From positions 992,001-1,056,000 of the forward strand of contig NZ_JAFBBR010000001.1 of the NCBI RefSeq assembly GCF_016907295.1: DNA of 64,000 bases, read 5' to 3'. The stretch's first letter is position 1. Every line of letters starts with the position of its first letter. This stretch comes from Microbacterium dextranolyticum. GTDB taxonomy: Bacteria > Actinomycetota > Actinomycetes > Actinomycetales > Microbacteriaceae. Below, one piece after another: positions 39,681-48,641 of this stretch. Under the pieces are notes generated by a model that saw only the letters and a program-made list of their open reading frames with translations, was not told the origin of the DNA and made no database searches. The translations under genes and the position numbers were made by a program.

Positions 39681-40451
39681 ATGAGCGAGTCACCGCACAC
39701 CCCCGCCCTCCATCTCTCCGGTCTCGTCAAGCGATTCGGCGAGAAGACCGCCGTCGCCGGGATCGATCTGGTCGTCCCGTCCGGCTCTTTCTACGGGCTC
39801 GTCGGGCCCAACGGCGCCGGCAAGACGACCACCCTGTCGATGGCCACCGGCCTGTTGCGGCCCGATGCGGGCACCGCGCGGGTGCACGGTATCGACGTCT
39901 GGGCCGACCCGGCCGGCGCGAAGGCGATCATCGGCAATCTCGCGGACGGCGTGCGACTGTTCGACCGCCTGACTGGTGAACAGCTCATCACCTACACCGC
40001 GATGATGTTCTCGCTGCCGCGCACCGAGATCGCTCCGCGCGTGCACGACCTGCTCGAGCTGATGGACCTGACGGCGGCCGCGGGCACGATCGTCGCCGAC
40101 TACTCCGCCGGCATGACGAAGAAGGTCGCCCTCGCGTGCGCCCTCGTCCATGCGCCACGGCTGCTGGTCCTCGACGAGCCGTTCGAATCGGTCGACCCGG
40201 TGTCGGCGGCCAACATCGAAGACGTGCTGCGCTCGTACACCTCGTCGGGAGGCTCGGTCATCGTCTCGAGCCATTCGATGGATCTCGTCCAGCGCATGTG
40301 CGACCATGTCGCCGTCATCGCCGGCGGGCGGGTGCTCGCCGCCGGGACGGTGAATGAGGTGCGGGCGGGGGAGTCGTTGCAGGACCGCTTCGTCTCGCTC
40401 GTCGGCGGGCGTCACACCTCGGAGGGGCCGCAGTGGTTGCGACAGTCCTGA
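39681..40451 (+). CDS. ABC-2 type exporter ATPase
   Basis: A 256-residue ATPase with Walker A GPNGAGKTTT near residue 43 and Walker B LLVLDEPFESVDP near 158. The signature is YSAGMTKKVAL, a variant of LSGGQ in which the second Gly is Met. The H-loop lies in VIVSSHSMDLV. The partner permease starts 18 bp before its stop. Substrate unknown; such pairs export drugs, lipids or peptides, or confer tolerance. Confidence 0.85.
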   Translation: MSESPHTPALHLSGLVKRFGEKTAVAGIDLVVPSGSFYGLVGPNGAGKTTTLSMATGLLRPDAGTARVHGIDVWADPAGAKAIIGNLADGVRLFDRLTGEQLITYTAMMFSLPRTEIAPRVHDLLELMDLTAAAGTIVADYSAGMTKKVALACALVHAPRLLVLDEPFESVDPVSAANIEDVLRSYTSSGGSVIVSSHSMDLVQRMCDHVAVIAGGRVLAAGTVNEVRAGESLQDRFVSLVGGRHTSEGPQWLRQS

Positions 40452-42016
40452 GGCTGCGCTATCGGGTGCTCGGCAACACGCTCGCGCGGCGACCGTGGCA
40501 GCTGGTCGGATTCTGCTTCGGCTTCCTCTGGGCGCTGTCGATCCTGGCGATGGTGACGGCCGCGCTGATCGCGGTCGGGGTCTCCGGCGACCTCTCGGTC
40601 TCGCGGACCGTGATCACCCTCGCGGGAGCGGCGCTCGTGCTCGGCTGGGTGGTGGGTCCCCTCGTCGTGGCGGGCATCGACACGACGGTGGATGCCACGA
40701 AGCTGGCACCCTTCCCGTTGACGACCCGCCAGGTGATGACGATCCTGGCGGCGACGGGGGCGACCGGCATCCCGGGGATCGTGACCTCGATCGCGGCGCT
40801 GGTGAGCGTCGCGGTTTGGGTGGCCTGGCCCACGGCGGCGATCGCCGCCGTGCCGTCCGCCGTGATCGGGGTAGCCACCTGCGTGCTGGCGACCCGTTTC
40901 GCGGCGGCGCTGGCCGTCGGCCTCGGCAGCGGGCGGCGCGGACGCGAGGTCATCGGGACCCTCGTCCTCGTGCTCGTCATCTTCGCGGGGCCCATCACCA
41001 CCGGCATCCTCGCGACGCTCTCCGGGGCGGGGTCCATCGGTGGGCAGCTCGGCCAGGCGGCGGCGGTGCTCGGATGGACGCCTCTCGGGGCGACGTGGTC
41101 GCTGCCGGGCGAGATCGCCGCAGGCGCGTGGGGCATCGCTGCGATCAAGCTGCTGATCGCGCTGGTGACCCCGGTCGCCCTGTGGTTCGGCTGGCGCTGG
41201 TCGCTCGAGCAGTCACTGGTGTCTCCGCCGCGGCAGGCCTCCCGCACGGTCAAGCCGGGCGCGCTGGGACTGTTCGGGGTCATGCCCACCGGCGGCGTCG
41301 GGGCGACGTGGGCGCGATCGCTGACCGGCTGGCTGCGCGACCCGCGGTATCTCCGACAGCTGATCATCGCCCCGCTGTTCCCCGTGCTGTTCGCATTCAC
41401 GAGCGGCACCGAGGGGGTCATGTTCGCCGCCTCGCCCGTGCTCGTCGCCTTCGTCCTGTGCGTCTCGGGCTACACCGACGTGTCCTACGACGGCACCGCG
41501 TTCGCCTCGGTCCTCTCCAGCGGCATCCGCGGGAGGGCCGACCGCTGGGGTCGGATGCTCGGCGCGGCATCCATCGGTGTGCCGCTCATGCTGATGACCG
41601 CGATCGTCACCGCGGTCATCGGAGGACATCTGGATGCCCTTCCGGCGGTCCTCGGGGCCTCCTTCGGTCTGCTGCTGGGTGGCTACGGCGTGAACGCCGT
41701 GTCGTCTGCCCTCATCGTCACGCCCGTCGCCGCGCCGGGGGACAACCCGTTCAAGAGCGTCCCCGGGCAGACGTTCGTCAGCGGGCTTCTCGTCTTCGTC
41801 GTCCTCGCCGCGTGCGGCGTCGTCGCGCTGCCCGCGGTGATCGTCGCCGGCATCTCGGTCATCAGCGGCAATGCGGCACTCGGCTGGGTCGCTCTCGCGG
41901 TCGGTCTCGGCGTCGGCGCGGGCGTCGCGGCGGGCGGCGTCGCCCTCGGCGGACGCACCCTCGAGCGCACCGGCCCGGATCTGCTGCTGCAGATCAAGGC
42001 CTTCCCCACGACGTGA
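40433..42016 (+). CDS. ABC exporter membrane subunit
   Basis: A 527-residue protein with about twelve hydrophobic segments, arranged as two halves separated by a hydrophilic stretch around residues 265-300. Start at GTG 40433 with GGAGG 8 nt upstream, inside the ATPase gene, so it is translated with that partner. No substrate signature was recognised. Confidence 0.78.
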   Translation: MVATVLRLRYRVLGNTLARRPWQLVGFCFGFLWALSILAMVTAALIAVGVSGDLSVSRTVITLAGAALVLGWVVGPLVVAGIDTTVDATKLAPFPLTTRQVMTILAATGATGIPGIVTSIAALVSVAVWVAWPTAAIAAVPSAVIGVATCVLATRFAAALAVGLGSGRRGREVIGTLVLVLVIFAGPITTGILATLSGAGSIGGQLGQAAAVLGWTPLGATWSLPGEIAAGAWGIAAIKLLIALVTPVALWFGWRWSLEQSLVSPPRQASRTVKPGALGLFGVMPTGGVGATWARSLTGWLRDPRYLRQLIIAPLFPVLFAFTSGTEGVMFAASPVLVAFVLCVSGYTDVSYDGTAFASVLSSGIRGRADRWGRMLGAASIGVPLMLMTAIVTAVIGGHLDALPAVLGASFGLLLGGYGVNAVSSALIVTPVAAPGDNPFKSVPGQTFVSGLLVFVVLAACGVVALPAVIVAGISVISGNAALGWVALAVGLGVGAGVAAGGVALGGRTLERTGPDLLLQIKAFPTT

Positions 42017-42054
42017 GCGCAGATTCCGCCCCGTCGCGCAGCCACCGCGTGGAT

Positions 42055-42084
42055 TTGCCGCGAAGGGGCAACCCGCGCTATCGT
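42055..42084 (+). promoter_or_regulatory. Promoter of the arg leader peptide and arg operon
   Basis: TTGCCG (42055-42060), an 18-nt spacer and TATCGT (42079-42084). The -10 box ends 6 nt before the leader ATG, so the leader itself would be leaderless. Confidence 0.55.
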
Positions 42085-42090
42085 CACGGC

Positions 42091-42171
42091 ATGCTCTCGG
42101 CCCTGCACACCGCCTCTGCGGCGTTCCGTGCGCGCCGTCGCCCCGCCCGTCTGGGCGACCGCCGACTGTAG
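42091..42171 (+). CDS. Arg-rich leader peptide candidate upstream of argC
   Basis: A 26-codon frame with 7 arginines, including RARRR at residues 13-17 and RR at 24-25, ending 112 nt before argC. It has its own promoter with the leaderless spacing seen at other genes here, and third-position GC of about 81 percent. High density of codons for the pathway's end product is the mark of attenuator peptides. Against it: arginine codons are common in chance frames at this GC, and no attenuator of this kind is known to me in actinobacteria. Confidence 0.5.
   Translation: MLSALHTASAAFRARRRPARLGDRRL
42137..42159 (+). promoter_or_regulatory. Leader hairpin within the Arg codon run
   Basis: GTCGCCC and GGGCGAC pair around a 9-nt loop. 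The 5' arm spans the Arg codons at 42136-42141, so a ribosome waiting for Arg-tRNA would block it. Confidence 0.4.
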
Positions 42172-42232
42172 GCGACCTCGCGTGCTCCCCGTGGTCCGGG
42201 TCGAGCCGTGGGAGTCGCCGTCGCCGGTCCCG

Positions 42233-42256
42233 GCCGCCTGCTTCGTGCGGGGCGGC
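42233..42256 (+). promoter_or_regulatory. GC-rich hairpin before argC, possible attenuator
   Basis: GCCGCC and GGCGGC pair around a 12-nt loop, followed by TTCCCTCCC, 27 nt before argC. There is no long T-run, so it is only a candidate terminator. Confidence 0.33.
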
Positions 42257-42283
42257 TTCCCTCCCAGACAATAAGGTTGAACA

Positions 42284-43333
42284 ATGACCTACTCGGTCGC
42301 CGTCTCCGGCGCCTCCGGCTACGCCGGGGGCGAGATCCTGCGCCTGCTCGCCGCGCACCCCGACATCGAGATCCGCACCGTCACGGCGCACTCGAATGCC
42401 GGGCAGCCCCTCATCGACCACCAGCCGCATCTGCGGTCGCTGGCCCACCTCACCCTCGAGGACACGACGCCCGAGATCCTCGCCGGGCACGACATCGTGT
42501 TCCTCGCGCTGCCGCACGGGCAGTCGGCGCAGTACACGGATGCCCTCGCCGACGTGCCGCTCGTCATCGACGCCGGCGCCGATCACCGGTTGACCTCGGC
42601 GGATGCCTGGGCGCAGTTCTACGGGGGGGCGTTCAGTGAGCCGTGGTCGTACGGCGTTCCCGAACTGCCGCTCGCGGGGGGCGCGACGCAGCGGTCGGCG
42701 CTCGCCGGCGCGACGCGCATCGCCGCGCCGGGATGCAACGCCTCGACCGTGGCACTGAGCCTCGCACCCGGTGTCGCCGCAGGAGTGATCGACGCATCCG
42801 ACATCGTCACCGTCCTCGCGGTCGGCCCGTCGGGCGCCGGCAAGAGCCTGAAGACGAACCTGCTGGCATCCGAGATCCTCGGCTCCGCGAACCCGTATGC
42901 CGTCGGCGGCACGCACCGGCACATCCCCGAGATCCGGCAGTCGCTCGTCGCAGCCGGGGCGGCGGGCGAGGTGAAGATCTCGTTCACGCCCGTCCTCGTG
43001 CCGATGGCGCGGGGCATCCTCGCGACCTCGACGGCGCCCCTCGCCCCGGGCGTCACCGATGCGCAGATCCGGGATGCCTGGCAGGCGGCCTACGGCGACG
43101 AGACCTTCGTACAGCTGCTTCCCGAAGGACAGTTCCCGCGGACGGCCGACGTCCTCGGGGCGAACACGGCTCTCCTCGGGCTCGCGATCGACCGTGCGGC
43201 GAACCGCGTCGTCGTGGTCGCGGCCGTCGACAACCTCGTCAAGGGCACCGCGGGTGCCGCCATCCAGTCGATGAATATCGCCCTCGGCCTTCCCGAGGCC
43301 ACGGGCCTGACCGTGAACGGAGTGGCACCGTGA
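42284..43333 (+). CDS. argC: N-acetyl-gamma-glutamyl-phosphate reductase
   Basis: NADPH-dependent third step of arginine synthesis. The Rossmann motif [15 protein letters not shown] is at residues 7-21 and the catalytic cysteine is Cys151 in APGCNAST. 349 residues. SD AAGG lies before the ATG. First structural gene of the overlapping arg unit; its stop overlaps the argJ GTG. Confidence 0.97.
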
Positions 43334-46654: not shown

Positions 46655-47574
46655 CCCGCCATCTGCTGCGCGACGACGACCTGACCCCCGCGGAGCAGGC
46701 CGAGATCATCGACCTCGCGATCGCCCTGAAGAAGGACCGCTGGAAGCTGAAGCCGCTCGAGGGGCCCCAGACGGTCGCGGTCATCTTCGACAAGAGCTCG
46801 ACCCGCACCCGAGTGTCGTTCGCTGTGGGTATCGCCGACCTCGGCGGATCGCCGCTCATCATCTCGACCGCCAACAGCCAGCTCGGCGGCAAGGAGACGC
46901 CGTCCGACACCGCGCGGGTGCTCGAGCGTCAGGTCGCCGCGATCGTGTGGCGCACGTACGCGCAGGCGGGCCTCGAGGAAATGGCGCGCGGCACGACGGT
47001 GCCCGTCGTCAACGCGCTCAGCGACGACTTCCACCCCTGCCAGCTGCTCGCCGACCTGCTGACGATCCGTGAGCACAAGGGCGAGTTGAAGGGCCTCACG
47101 CTGACCTTCTTCGGCGACGGCACCTCCAACATGGGCCACTCGTACGTGCTCGCCGGCGTCACCGCCGGGATGCATGTGCGGATCGCGTCGCCCGTCGCGT
47201 ACGCGCCGCGCGCCGACGTCGTCGCCGATGCGGAGCGGATCGCCGAGAGCACCGGCGGATCGGTGACCCTGTTCACCGATCCGGACGAGGCCGCCGTCGG
47301 CTCCGACGTCGTCGTCACCGACACGTGGGTGTCGATGGGCAAGGAGGAGGAGAAGGCGCAGCGGTTGAGCGACCTCGGCCGCTACAAGGTGACGACCGAG
47401 ACGATGGCGCTCGCGGCATCCGACGCGATCTTCATCCACTGCCTGCCGGCCGACCGCGGGTATGAGGTCGACGCGGACGTCATCGACGGACCGCAGAGCG
47501 TCGTGTGGGACGAGGCGGAGAACCGCCTGCACGCCCAGAAGGCCCTGCTGGTGTGGCTGCTGCGTCAGCAGTAG
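46651..47574 (+). CDS. argF: Ornithine carbamoyltransferase
   Basis: Makes citrulline from ornithine and carbamoyl phosphate. The carbamoyl-phosphate motif SSTRTRVSF is near residue 50, FHPCQLLADL near 128 and HCLPADRG near 266 with the catalytic Cys. 307 residues. Unlike many actinobacteria, no argR follows; the next gene encodes a membrane protein that starts inside argF. Confidence 0.97.
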   Translation: MTRHLLRDDDLTPAEQAEIIDLAIALKKDRWKLKPLEGPQTVAVIFDKSSTRTRVSFAVGIADLGGSPLIISTANSQLGGKETPSDTARVLERQVAAIVWRTYAQAGLEEMARGTTVPVVNALSDDFHPCQLLADLLTIREHKGELKGLTLTFFGDGTSNMGHSYVLAGVTAGMHVRIASPVAYAPRADVVADAERIAESTGGSVTLFTDPDEAAVGSDVVVTDTWVSMGKEEEKAQRLSDLGRYKVTTETMALAASDAIFIHCLPADRGYEVDADVIDGPQSVVWDEAENRLHAQKALLVWLLRQQ

Positions 47575-48641
47575 ACCGACCCCTCTTCAGCCCTGCACGA
47601 TTGCAGGGTATCGATCTCGCGCGCGGAATCGCCGTGATCGGCATGCTCGCCGCGCACCTGGTGTACCTCGCGGAGTGGGATTGGCGAGACCCCGGCACCT
47701 GGACCGACGTCGCCAATGGGCGCTCGTCGATCCTCTTCGCGACCCTCGCCGGGGTCTCGATCGCGCTCGTGACCGGGGGAGCGTCTCGCCCCGCGCCGGG
47801 GCGAGAGCTGGGCCGCGCGCGGCGCGCGCTCGCCCTGCGTGCGCTGCTGCTGTGGCTCATCGGCCTCGTGCTGATCGCGACGCAGGTGCCGGCTTTCATC
47901 ATCCTGCCCACGTACGCGGTGCTGTTCCTGCTCGCCCTCCCGCTCCTGCGCCTGCGGGCACGGACGCTGTGGATCGTCGCCGCCGGTCTCGCCGCCACGA
48001 TGCCCTGGATCGAGCCGCTGCTCGACGGCCTGCCCGTGTGGCGCGGAGAGCAGGGGGCGATGCTGATGCTCGTCGCGGGATGGCACTACCCGTTCCCCGT
48101 GTGGGCGGTGTTCGTCGTCGCAGGGCTCGCCGCGGGGCGCTCCGGGCTCGGGCGGCCCCGGACGGCGTGGACGCTGCTGGCGGCGGGTGCCGCGCTCGCG
48201 GCCCTAGCCTACGGAGCGGATGCCCTCCGCACGGCCCTGCACCCGGCAGGAGGGCGGTCGTATCTCGACGCGGCGCTCGCCGCCCGCCCCCACTCCGGAG
48301 GACTCCTCGAAGTGTTCGGCGGCGGAGGCCTCGCTCTGGCCGCGATCGGTCTCTGCCTGCTCCTCTGCCGGGTCCGGCCCGTCGGGGCGGTGCTGCTGCC
48401 GCTGCGCGCGGTCGGGTCGATGCCACTCACCGCGTACGTCGGCCAGATCATCGCGTGGGTTCTCGTCGCCGCTCTCGTTCTCGGAGACGTCCGTGATCTG
48501 CAGGGGATGCGCAACCTGCAGCCGTTCTGGCCCTTCGCCGGGGCGACGATCATGTTCTGCACAGCCTGGGGTCTGCGGTGGGGGAGAGGCCCTGTGGAAC
48601 GCCTGCTGGCATGGGTGACCCGATGGGTGCTGCCGCGCTGA
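47553..48641 (+). CDS. Heparan-alpha-glucosaminide N-acetyltransferase-like membrane protein
   Basis: A 362-residue multipass protein with about ten hydrophobic segments. The N-terminal GIDLARGIAVIGMLAAHLV is the hallmark of the HGSNAT/DUF1624-DUF418 group of predicted membrane acyltransferases, and MPLTAYVGQII near residue 290 recurs in that group. Start GTG 47553 (SD AAGG 8 nt upstream) overlaps argF by 22 bp; GTG 47505 is an alternative. Its place between argF and argH is odd; a role in arginine metabolism is not supported by its family. Confidence 0.75.
   Translation: MAAASAVDRPLFSPARLQGIDLARGIAVIGMLAAHLVYLAEWDWRDPGTWTDVANGRSSILFATLAGVSIALVTGGASRPAPGRELGRARRALALRALLLWLIGLVLIATQVPAFIILPTYAVLFLLALPLLRLRARTLWIVAAGLAATMPWIEPLLDGLPVWRGEQGAMLMLVAGWHYPFPVWAVFVVAGLAAGRSGLGRPRTAWTLLAAGAALAALAYGADALRTALHPAGGRSYLDAALAARPHSGGLLEVFGGGGLALAAIGLCLLLCRVRPVGAVLLPLRAVGSMPLTAYVGQIIAWVLVAALVLGDVRDLQGMRNLQPFWPFAGATIMFCTAWGLRWGRGPVERLLAWVTRWVLPR

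Follow-up and report, generated by a model that had tools for sequence, protein, structure and literature searches.

Attenuation by leader peptides is well established as such, and a leader that senses arginine is already known in Salmonella. The arginine attenuator peptide of fungi, compared here by description only, shares with the locus discussed below the outline of an arginine-responsive upstream ORF; it is eukaryotic and works through a peptide-arrest mechanism. For the Salmonella speF leader orf34, the available parts of the report (PMC6386406) propose that a ribosome waiting at Arg codons allows a hairpin downstream from the stop to form (ON), and that a ribosome waiting at the stop opens this hairpin (OFF). 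There, the OFF state at high arginine is ascribed to RNase G decay, with Rho acting when orf34 is untranslated (PMC6386406, same excerpts). In actinobacteria, the survey of Seliverstov 2005 (PMC1262725), whose genomes included Leifsonia xyli, records in the portions available no conserved RNA structure before arginine operons and offers Rho at mycobacterial cys leaders as a weak prediction. Among the open-licence PMC matches listed, there is no report of an arginine leader peptide, be it at argC, in Microbacterium, or in other Microbacteriaceae, and the words arginine, argC, and Microbacterium are absent from PMC4833913 on leader genes. Within that literature, the word "undescribed," which the original prediction had applied to a candidate arginine attenuator upstream of argC in Microbacterium dextranolyticum, stands. 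The window (the whole stretch of 64,000 nt of that genome that was analyzed) contains this locus, a short Arg-rich ORF with a conserved hairpin at its stop codon.

Layout of the locus

The promoter TTGCCG-N18-TATCGT, the 6 nt from there to the ATG, the frame of 26 codons with 7 Arg codons, and the stop 112 nt before argC (42284) had all been named beforehand, and all these coordinates agree with the window (Table 1). The frame translates into MLSALHTASAAFRARRRPARLGDRRL followed by the stop, with Arg at 7 of the 26 residues. From argC on, the gene order is argC, argJ, argB, argD, argF, an ORF without NCBIfam match, and argH. The 5′ side of the leader holds pheT, then an ABC-transporter ATPase-like gene, then another ORF without NCBIfam match.

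TABLE 1. Features of the argC leader and of neighboring ORFs in the window
Feature	Position	Strand	Remarks
ORF without NCBIfam match	40433-42016		Interval between the ABC ATPase gene and the leader
Leader −35 element TTGCCG	42055-42060	+	Direct read of the window
Leader −10 element TATCGT	42079-42084	+	18-nt spacer from −35; ATG 6 nt on
Leader-peptide ORF	42091-42171	+	26 codons and TAG (42169-42171); probably leaderless
First Arg run, codons 15-17, CGC CGT CGC	42133-42141	+	Displaced compared with relatives
Last Arg pair CGC CGA	42160-42165	+	One codon between pair and stop
Conserved hairpin	42171-42219	+	5′ foot GGCGAC from the G of TAG; 3′ foot GTCGCC at 42214-42219
C-rich, G-poor tract	42220-42270	+	In the window holds an extra, nonconserved GC hairpin (42233-42256)
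TAAGGT, SD-like site of argC, also −10-like	42272-42277	+	SD-like in 111/114 leader-bearing regions
argC	42284-43333	+	TIGR01850, 338 bits (cut-off 233.6); first gene of argCJBDF...argH
ORF without NCBIfam match	47505-48641		Interval between argF and argH

No Rfam family matched in the whole window at the gathering cut-off, nor in 42000-42320 at E values up to 5; neither a T-box nor another known Rfam leader was found there. A promoter and terminator scan of the window region, with a promoter consensus stricter than the leader promoter, gave no site. Six leader peptides, very short as queries, gave no Pfam match at E values up to 10, PF10940 (DUF2618) included.

Distribution of the leader

The original prediction had put forward, as a check, a comparison across Microbacteriaceae; an Arg-rich leader with a hairpin at its stop was detected in most of the family regions examined. 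A 461-base query covering the leader and the start of argC matched 196 of 198 genus genomes, in many cases through its argC portion alone. Regions upstream of argC were taken from 203 of 205 loci of the genus, the family, and the order (two without a recognizable argC start were dropped), and the removal of four duplicates left 199 distinct regions. A detector that looks for Arg-rich ORFs preceded by a −10 box is positive in 59 of 61 distinct Microbacterium regions and in 54 of 86 regions from other genera of Microbacteriaceae, with 113/147 in the family in total. It is positive in none of the 52 regions from other families of the order (one of them, L189, only 90 nt long and too short for the detector, was scored as a miss). 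The two misses within the genus are L146 (52 nt at a contig end, again too short) and L117 (with a replaced upstream region); the leader of the genome of L146 was found by the RNA model on another contig. L117 is the same as L296, a Microbacterium MAG with a divergent argC upstream region lacking the leader although TTAAGGTGGAACC is kept. One region (L091), positive by hand with a 9-nt gap, brings the leader-bearing regions to 114 and the genera to 41/69, and L261 represents one more leader-bearing genus beyond these. In 28 of the 69 genera examined, no leader was detected.

Because the detector was written after the first 60 loci had been viewed, the 62 new regions of a second set, from the same genus, form a cleaner test. 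In that set of 80 loci (74 titled Microbacterium), 79 are positive, with all 62/62 new regions among them. The background of the detector amounts to 6/800 shuffled upstream regions, 8/80 reverse complements, and 0/80 argC-internal stretches.

A covariance model built from the conserved core and the hairpin (see below) is less sensitive than the ORF detector. In the host genome, at E 0.01 or better under strict filters, this RNA model gives one match, at argC, and no second copy. The core pattern also has a single exact match in the genome, at the window locus; with two mismatches it is not selective (289 matches vs. 224 for the backward control). The RNA model matches 90 of 199 family genomes (85/179 of the good ones, 48/85 genera), and in at least 11 of these 90 the only match lies away from argC. 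Such non-argC places number at least 18 in the family, and the five inspected are long open frames without a leaderless ORF. In the class sample, RNA-model matches outside Microbacteriaceae (24 of the 33 genomes with a match, best E 2.4e-4) are presumed to be GC background.

Reading frame, promoter, and Arg codons

The −10 box TANNNT, which is built into the detector, is placed 6 nt upstream from the start codon in most leaders (98 of 113; the gap is 7 nt in 13 and 8 nt in 2), and the start codon looks leaderless. A TTG −35 element occurs at the same 18-nt spacing in 58/59 genus leaders and at 16-19 nt in 24/54 leaders of other genera (82/113 overall). The nearest TANNNT-6-(A/G)TG before the core, chosen regardless of frame, is in frame with the core in 90 of 90 leaders, which come in 13 lengths of 20 to 37 codons and hold no in-frame stop before the core; left out of this test were the 35/147 regions that lack the core and 22 more in which no start stands precisely 6 nt from the box.

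The conserved core reads CGA NNN T(A/C)G GCG AC, with CGA invariant in the 68 leaders aligned (long or redundant leaders excluded). The frequency of Arg is 0.79 at the codon directly before the core CGA, 0.75-0.78 at codons five to seven before it, and 0.03-0.24 from eight codons on. In the window, three extra codons (PAR) place the Arg run farther out, at codons eight to ten ahead of the core CGA. Within the genus, RRR is encoded by ten different codon combinations. The peptide starts with M.SA in 44/59 genus leaders versus 4/54 elsewhere and is otherwise variable in sequence and length outside clusters. The caution, voiced at the outset, that Arg codons are frequent in chance frames was fair: Outside the core, Arg triplets make up 23.6% in frame versus 21.7% and 14.4% in the other frames. 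By the position of its Arg codons, its frame, and its distribution, the leader is more than chance.

The leaders use a restricted set of Arg codons, CGC, CGU, and CGA accounting for 94.8% of 784. The share of CGA is 26.7% versus 5.3% of the 208 Arg codons in eight window ORFs, an excess due in part to the invariant core CGA codon, and that of CGG is 5.2% versus 21.2% in the same ORFs. This codon bias suggests the sensing of the one tRNAArg that reads CGU, CGC, and CGA.

The conserved hairpin and the tract that follows

Two hairpins, at 42137-42159 and 42233-42256, had been proposed in the window. Both can be drawn, but neither is conserved, and the conserved hairpin sits between them. As seen by eye, the first is built on the PAR codons, which are not found at that place in the other leaders compared, and relatives such as L006 and L008 show a tract of 24-25 nt without the second. 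The stability of the conserved hairpin in the window is −33.7 kcal/mol (z −4.1, with 1 of 200 dinucleotide shuffles as stable). All 109 of the 109 core-bearing leaders allow a hairpin closed on the GGCGAC foot, a count that holds partly by construction because the hairpin ends were picked by energy. The median z of these 109 hairpins is −3.1 against single-nucleotide shuffles; the 4/113 leaders without the core pattern were excluded from the hairpin work. The length is 41-65 nt in 106/109, and the three hairpins longer than 70 nt were left out of the tract count.

The stop lies at −2 relative to the hairpin in 88/106 leaders and 10-25 nt inside it in 18/106, and never upstream. In most leaders with the stop inside, TAG is replaced by TCG and the frame continues to a TGA within the hairpin. 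With such a placement, a ribosome that terminates at the stop would in every case sit over the 5′ arm, whereas a ribosome at the upstream Arg run would not.

In the basal stem, covariation is not above that of shuffles (97/500 reach the score), and the share of paired cells is above it (reached by 2/500). The hairpin feet are nearly invariant, pair 5 is unpaired in 13/107, and two leaders (L033 and L071) present changes on both sides that preserve the pair. When hairpins of the same length exchange their 3′ halves, the predicted stability drops by a mean of 4.7 kcal/mol (from −30.8 to −26.1), although 23% of the exchanged hairpins reach the native mean; this is a weak indication that the two arms fit each other. 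The idea that the last Arg codons generally pair with the foot of the hairpin was considered and rejected: Such pairing is seen by eye in the CGCCGA class and is absent in the GAGCGACGATAGGCGACG class.

In the tract after the hairpin, C exceeds G in 106/106 leaders (mean 45.5% C and 20.5% G); at −55 to −13, the same holds for 22/52 outgroup and 9/34 leader-less family regions. The distance from the stop to argC is 60-183 nt (median 89), and the tract after the closed hairpin is 22-73 nt (median 26; 22-26 nt in short leaders). A conserved U-tract was not found in the 106 tracts (5 T in 8 nt in three of them; the longest T run, in one sequence, is four). A second hairpin is not conserved either, since the 3′ foot pairs downstream at 0.57 versus 0.54 in shuffles (53 sequences), and with pairing at this level a conserved downstream terminator hairpin was rejected.

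Other elements upstream of argC

In many genera, pheT adjoins argC. In genera g5 and g32 (L080, L114, and L257-L260), the element is at the 3′ end of pheT itself and there is no Arg leader: The pheT tail CGATTCGGGGCGAC...TGA occurs together with a C-rich tract and a 3′ arm that resembles GTCGCCG or GCCGCCG. The tails of the TGA-class leaders (e.g., L054, L067, L078, and L261), R(L/I/F)(S/W)AT(P/S).R and stop, resemble the C-terminus of PheT, RFGATLRE and stop. The mean nucleotide identity between these tails and the pheT end is 47% over 27 nt versus 31% for codon-shuffled tails. On such sequence likeness, the leader may have descended from the 3′ end of pheT; a chance likeness between leader tail and PheT is conceivable as well.

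In genera g15 and g48 (L036, L044, L056, and L060), where the leader was undetected, a common stretch GTGCCAGAAT(A/G)G precedes argC, palindromic in L056; it is perhaps the site of another regulator. In other genera without the leader (e.g., L064, L068, L105, and L109), TAGATT stands 6 nt before argC with no SD-like site, and argC appears leaderless. TANNNT without an SD-like site occurs in 17/33 leader-less family regions and in 32/52 outgroup regions.

Absence of ArgR

That no argR gene is present at the locus, as noted in the original prediction, extends to the whole genome, where PF01316 (ArgR) is absent, and PF01316 was found in 0/199 Microbacteriaceae genomes. In the order sample, 224/248 genomes have it, and all 18 Microbacteriaceae there are without; when these are set aside, the count is 224/230, with six negatives. 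With 9/14 well-known genomes positive in a control, the search works. Given this family-wide absence and order-wide presence, the loss of ArgR and the occurrence of the leader fall in the same family, and, since ArgR is not found in the family, the peptide gene probably senses arginine instead. The genera lacking the leader are also without ArgR; a cell that has no ArgR can thus do without the leader, and the leader is not the sole answer to the loss of ArgR.

Proposed mechanism and alternatives

Arginine-responsive attenuation is indicated by the amino acid and the operon concerned, by the loss of ArgR, and by the geometry of stop and hairpin. Our main reading, to which we give a probability of about 0.75, is that an Arg-sensing leader-peptide attenuator controls argCJBDF...argH and stands in for the lost ArgR; that the leader peptide is arginine-responsive seems highly likely on the sequence evidence. 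Of the original prediction, the Arg-rich leader is strongly supported as a conserved feature in a family without detectable ArgR; the hairpins it named are not conserved, and a conserved terminator was not found.

When charged tRNAArg is plentiful, the ribosome would get to the stop and hold the hairpin open; the hairpin interior, the 3′ arm, and the C-rich tract would then be exposed, and transcription would end before or in argC, likeliest via Rho. When charged tRNAArg is scarce, the ribosome would stall at the upstream Arg run and the hairpin would form, which would reduce the free RNA to a short tract and let RNA polymerase continue into argC. We lean toward an ON role for the hairpin, since a ribosome waiting at the first Arg run it meets would leave the hairpin free, as proposed for Salmonella orf34. 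A ribosome at the last CGC CGA pair, which is near the hairpin, would partly cover the foot, and this blurs the ON/OFF logic. Rho as the effector is a tentative choice, with a chance somewhat short of even. The median distances (89 vs. 26 nt) and the C-rich tract suggest Rho by inference, and, with neither a second hairpin nor a U-tract conserved, the terminator is assumed to be Rho-dependent or otherwise. Since the OFF state at high arginine in Salmonella is ascribed to RNase G, not Rho, the analog itself gives no support for Rho here. In a fuller account, which we consider doubtful, Microbacteriaceae would have lost ArgR, and many genera would have put arginine synthesis under the control of a leaderless poly-Arg leader, which would sense the charging of one tRNAArg isoacceptor via slow CGA codons; the stop-codon hairpin would gate Rho loading without an intrinsic terminator, and the tail would perhaps be a remnant of the pheT 3′ end.

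With the opposite polarity, which is unlikely, the hairpin would be the OFF structure: Under arginine shortage, a ribosome at the last CGC CGA would open the foot, and fast termination would let the hairpin stop or pause the polymerase. Of the Arg features, the CGC CGA pair beside the hairpin varies least, but the upstream run, which precedes it by 15-21 nt, varies hardly more (0.75-0.78 vs. 0.79), and a ribosome stalled at that run would leave the hairpin free, which is the wrong sign. Moreover, no conserved U-tract follows the hairpin, and mycobacterial polymerase needs a U-tract for termination. We see a small chance for translational attenuation as in the mycobacterial poly-Cys leaders, in which translation of the leader would gate the ribosome site of argC. 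The apparently leaderless sORF design is like that of the poly-Cys leaders, as far as the available excerpts describe them, and the SD-like site of argC is present in 111/114 leader-bearing regions versus 16/33 leader-less family and 1/52 outgroup regions. However, the argC SD and AUG are predicted to be equally open whether the hairpin can form or its 5′ arm is covered (0.53/0.51 and 0.60/0.62 unpaired, 109 sequences), and masking of the argC ribosome site is rejected by this unchanged access.

The upstream ORF would be of little effect if argC had its own leaderless promoter, TAAGGT-6 nt-ATG, an alternative with a slim chance. TANNNT occurs before argC in 102/114 leader-bearing, 24/33 leader-less family, and 32/52 outgroup regions, and in three leader-bearing regions it does so without an SD-like site; conversely, 12/114 retain the SD-like site without TANNNT. 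A TTG −35 is found at 0/102 leader-bearing sites versus 82/113 leader promoters, an absence that is not decisive because TTG is also rare at the sites of leader-less family (0/24) and outgroup (5/32) regions. TAAGGT is a possible second, leaderless promoter. It is very unlikely that the conserved DNA serves some other repressor as its operator and that the ORF results only from the GC-rich sequence. The core CGANNNT(A/C)GGCGAC varies less at the nucleotide level than the peptide does, but the frame is kept in 90/90 leaders over 13 lengths, RRR is written with ten codon combinations, and the stop shifts only in such a way that the ribosome stays over the hairpin. As to an Arg-rich frame that arose by chance in DNA of high GC content, every frame is rich in Arg triplets and 8/80 reverse complements are positive; against it stand the counts for shuffles (6/800), outgroups (0/52), the family (113/147), and the second set (79/80). 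Conservation, the frame in 90/90, and the second set lead us to reject this alternative, the probability of which is negligible.

Comparison with known systems

If the Arg-sensing leader-peptide attenuator is real, leader-peptide control would extend to an arginine-biosynthesis operon, a case not found in the actinobacterial survey of 2005, and a DNA-binding repressor would have been swapped family-wide for an RNA device. With one hairpin and no U-tract, the system is compact and lends itself to direct tests of the coupling between ribosome position and transcription in actinobacteria. ArgR/ARG-box control has the same target operon, but ArgR is absent from the 199 family genomes.

The locus resembles the trp/his type of attenuator in having a short ORF with clustered end-product codons directly before the matching operon; it differs from that type in that only one hairpin is conserved, with no mutually exclusive antiterminator and terminator hairpins and no intrinsic terminator with a U-tract. 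The actinobacterial trp, ilv, and leu leaders, in the parts of the survey available (PMC1262725), likewise present a leader peptide with end-product codons before the operon. The trp and ilv candidates there have terminators followed by U-tracts, and none is conserved at the argC leader. The mycobacterial poly-Cys sORFs (Canestrari 2020; see also PMC4633059), as the available excerpts describe them, are leaderless, have a run of the sensed residue near the stop, and precede genes for their own amino acid. They differ in the amino acid, cysteine, and are cited as translational attenuation, which the prediction of SD access does not support at argC; a structure of the poly-Cys type that masks the downstream SD was not found in the prediction on 109 sequences.

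The Salmonella speF leader orf34 (PMC6386406), in the portions of the report available, shares with the Microbacterium leader a short ORF with consecutive Arg codons and a stop adjoining a hairpin, and the order known from orf34, an Arg pair and then a stop codon at the foot of the hairpin that comes next, is found again in Microbacterium. By the same excerpts, orf34 differs in that it controls ornithine decarboxylase and not arginine synthesis, in that its ORF begins from +32 and is thus not leaderless, and in that the leader is 516 nt long with the speF ribosome site masked. Judged from the sequences compared here, what would be new for actinobacteria is the amino acid and the operon, together with an apparently leaderless ORF that has no terminator and carries a single hairpin at its stop.
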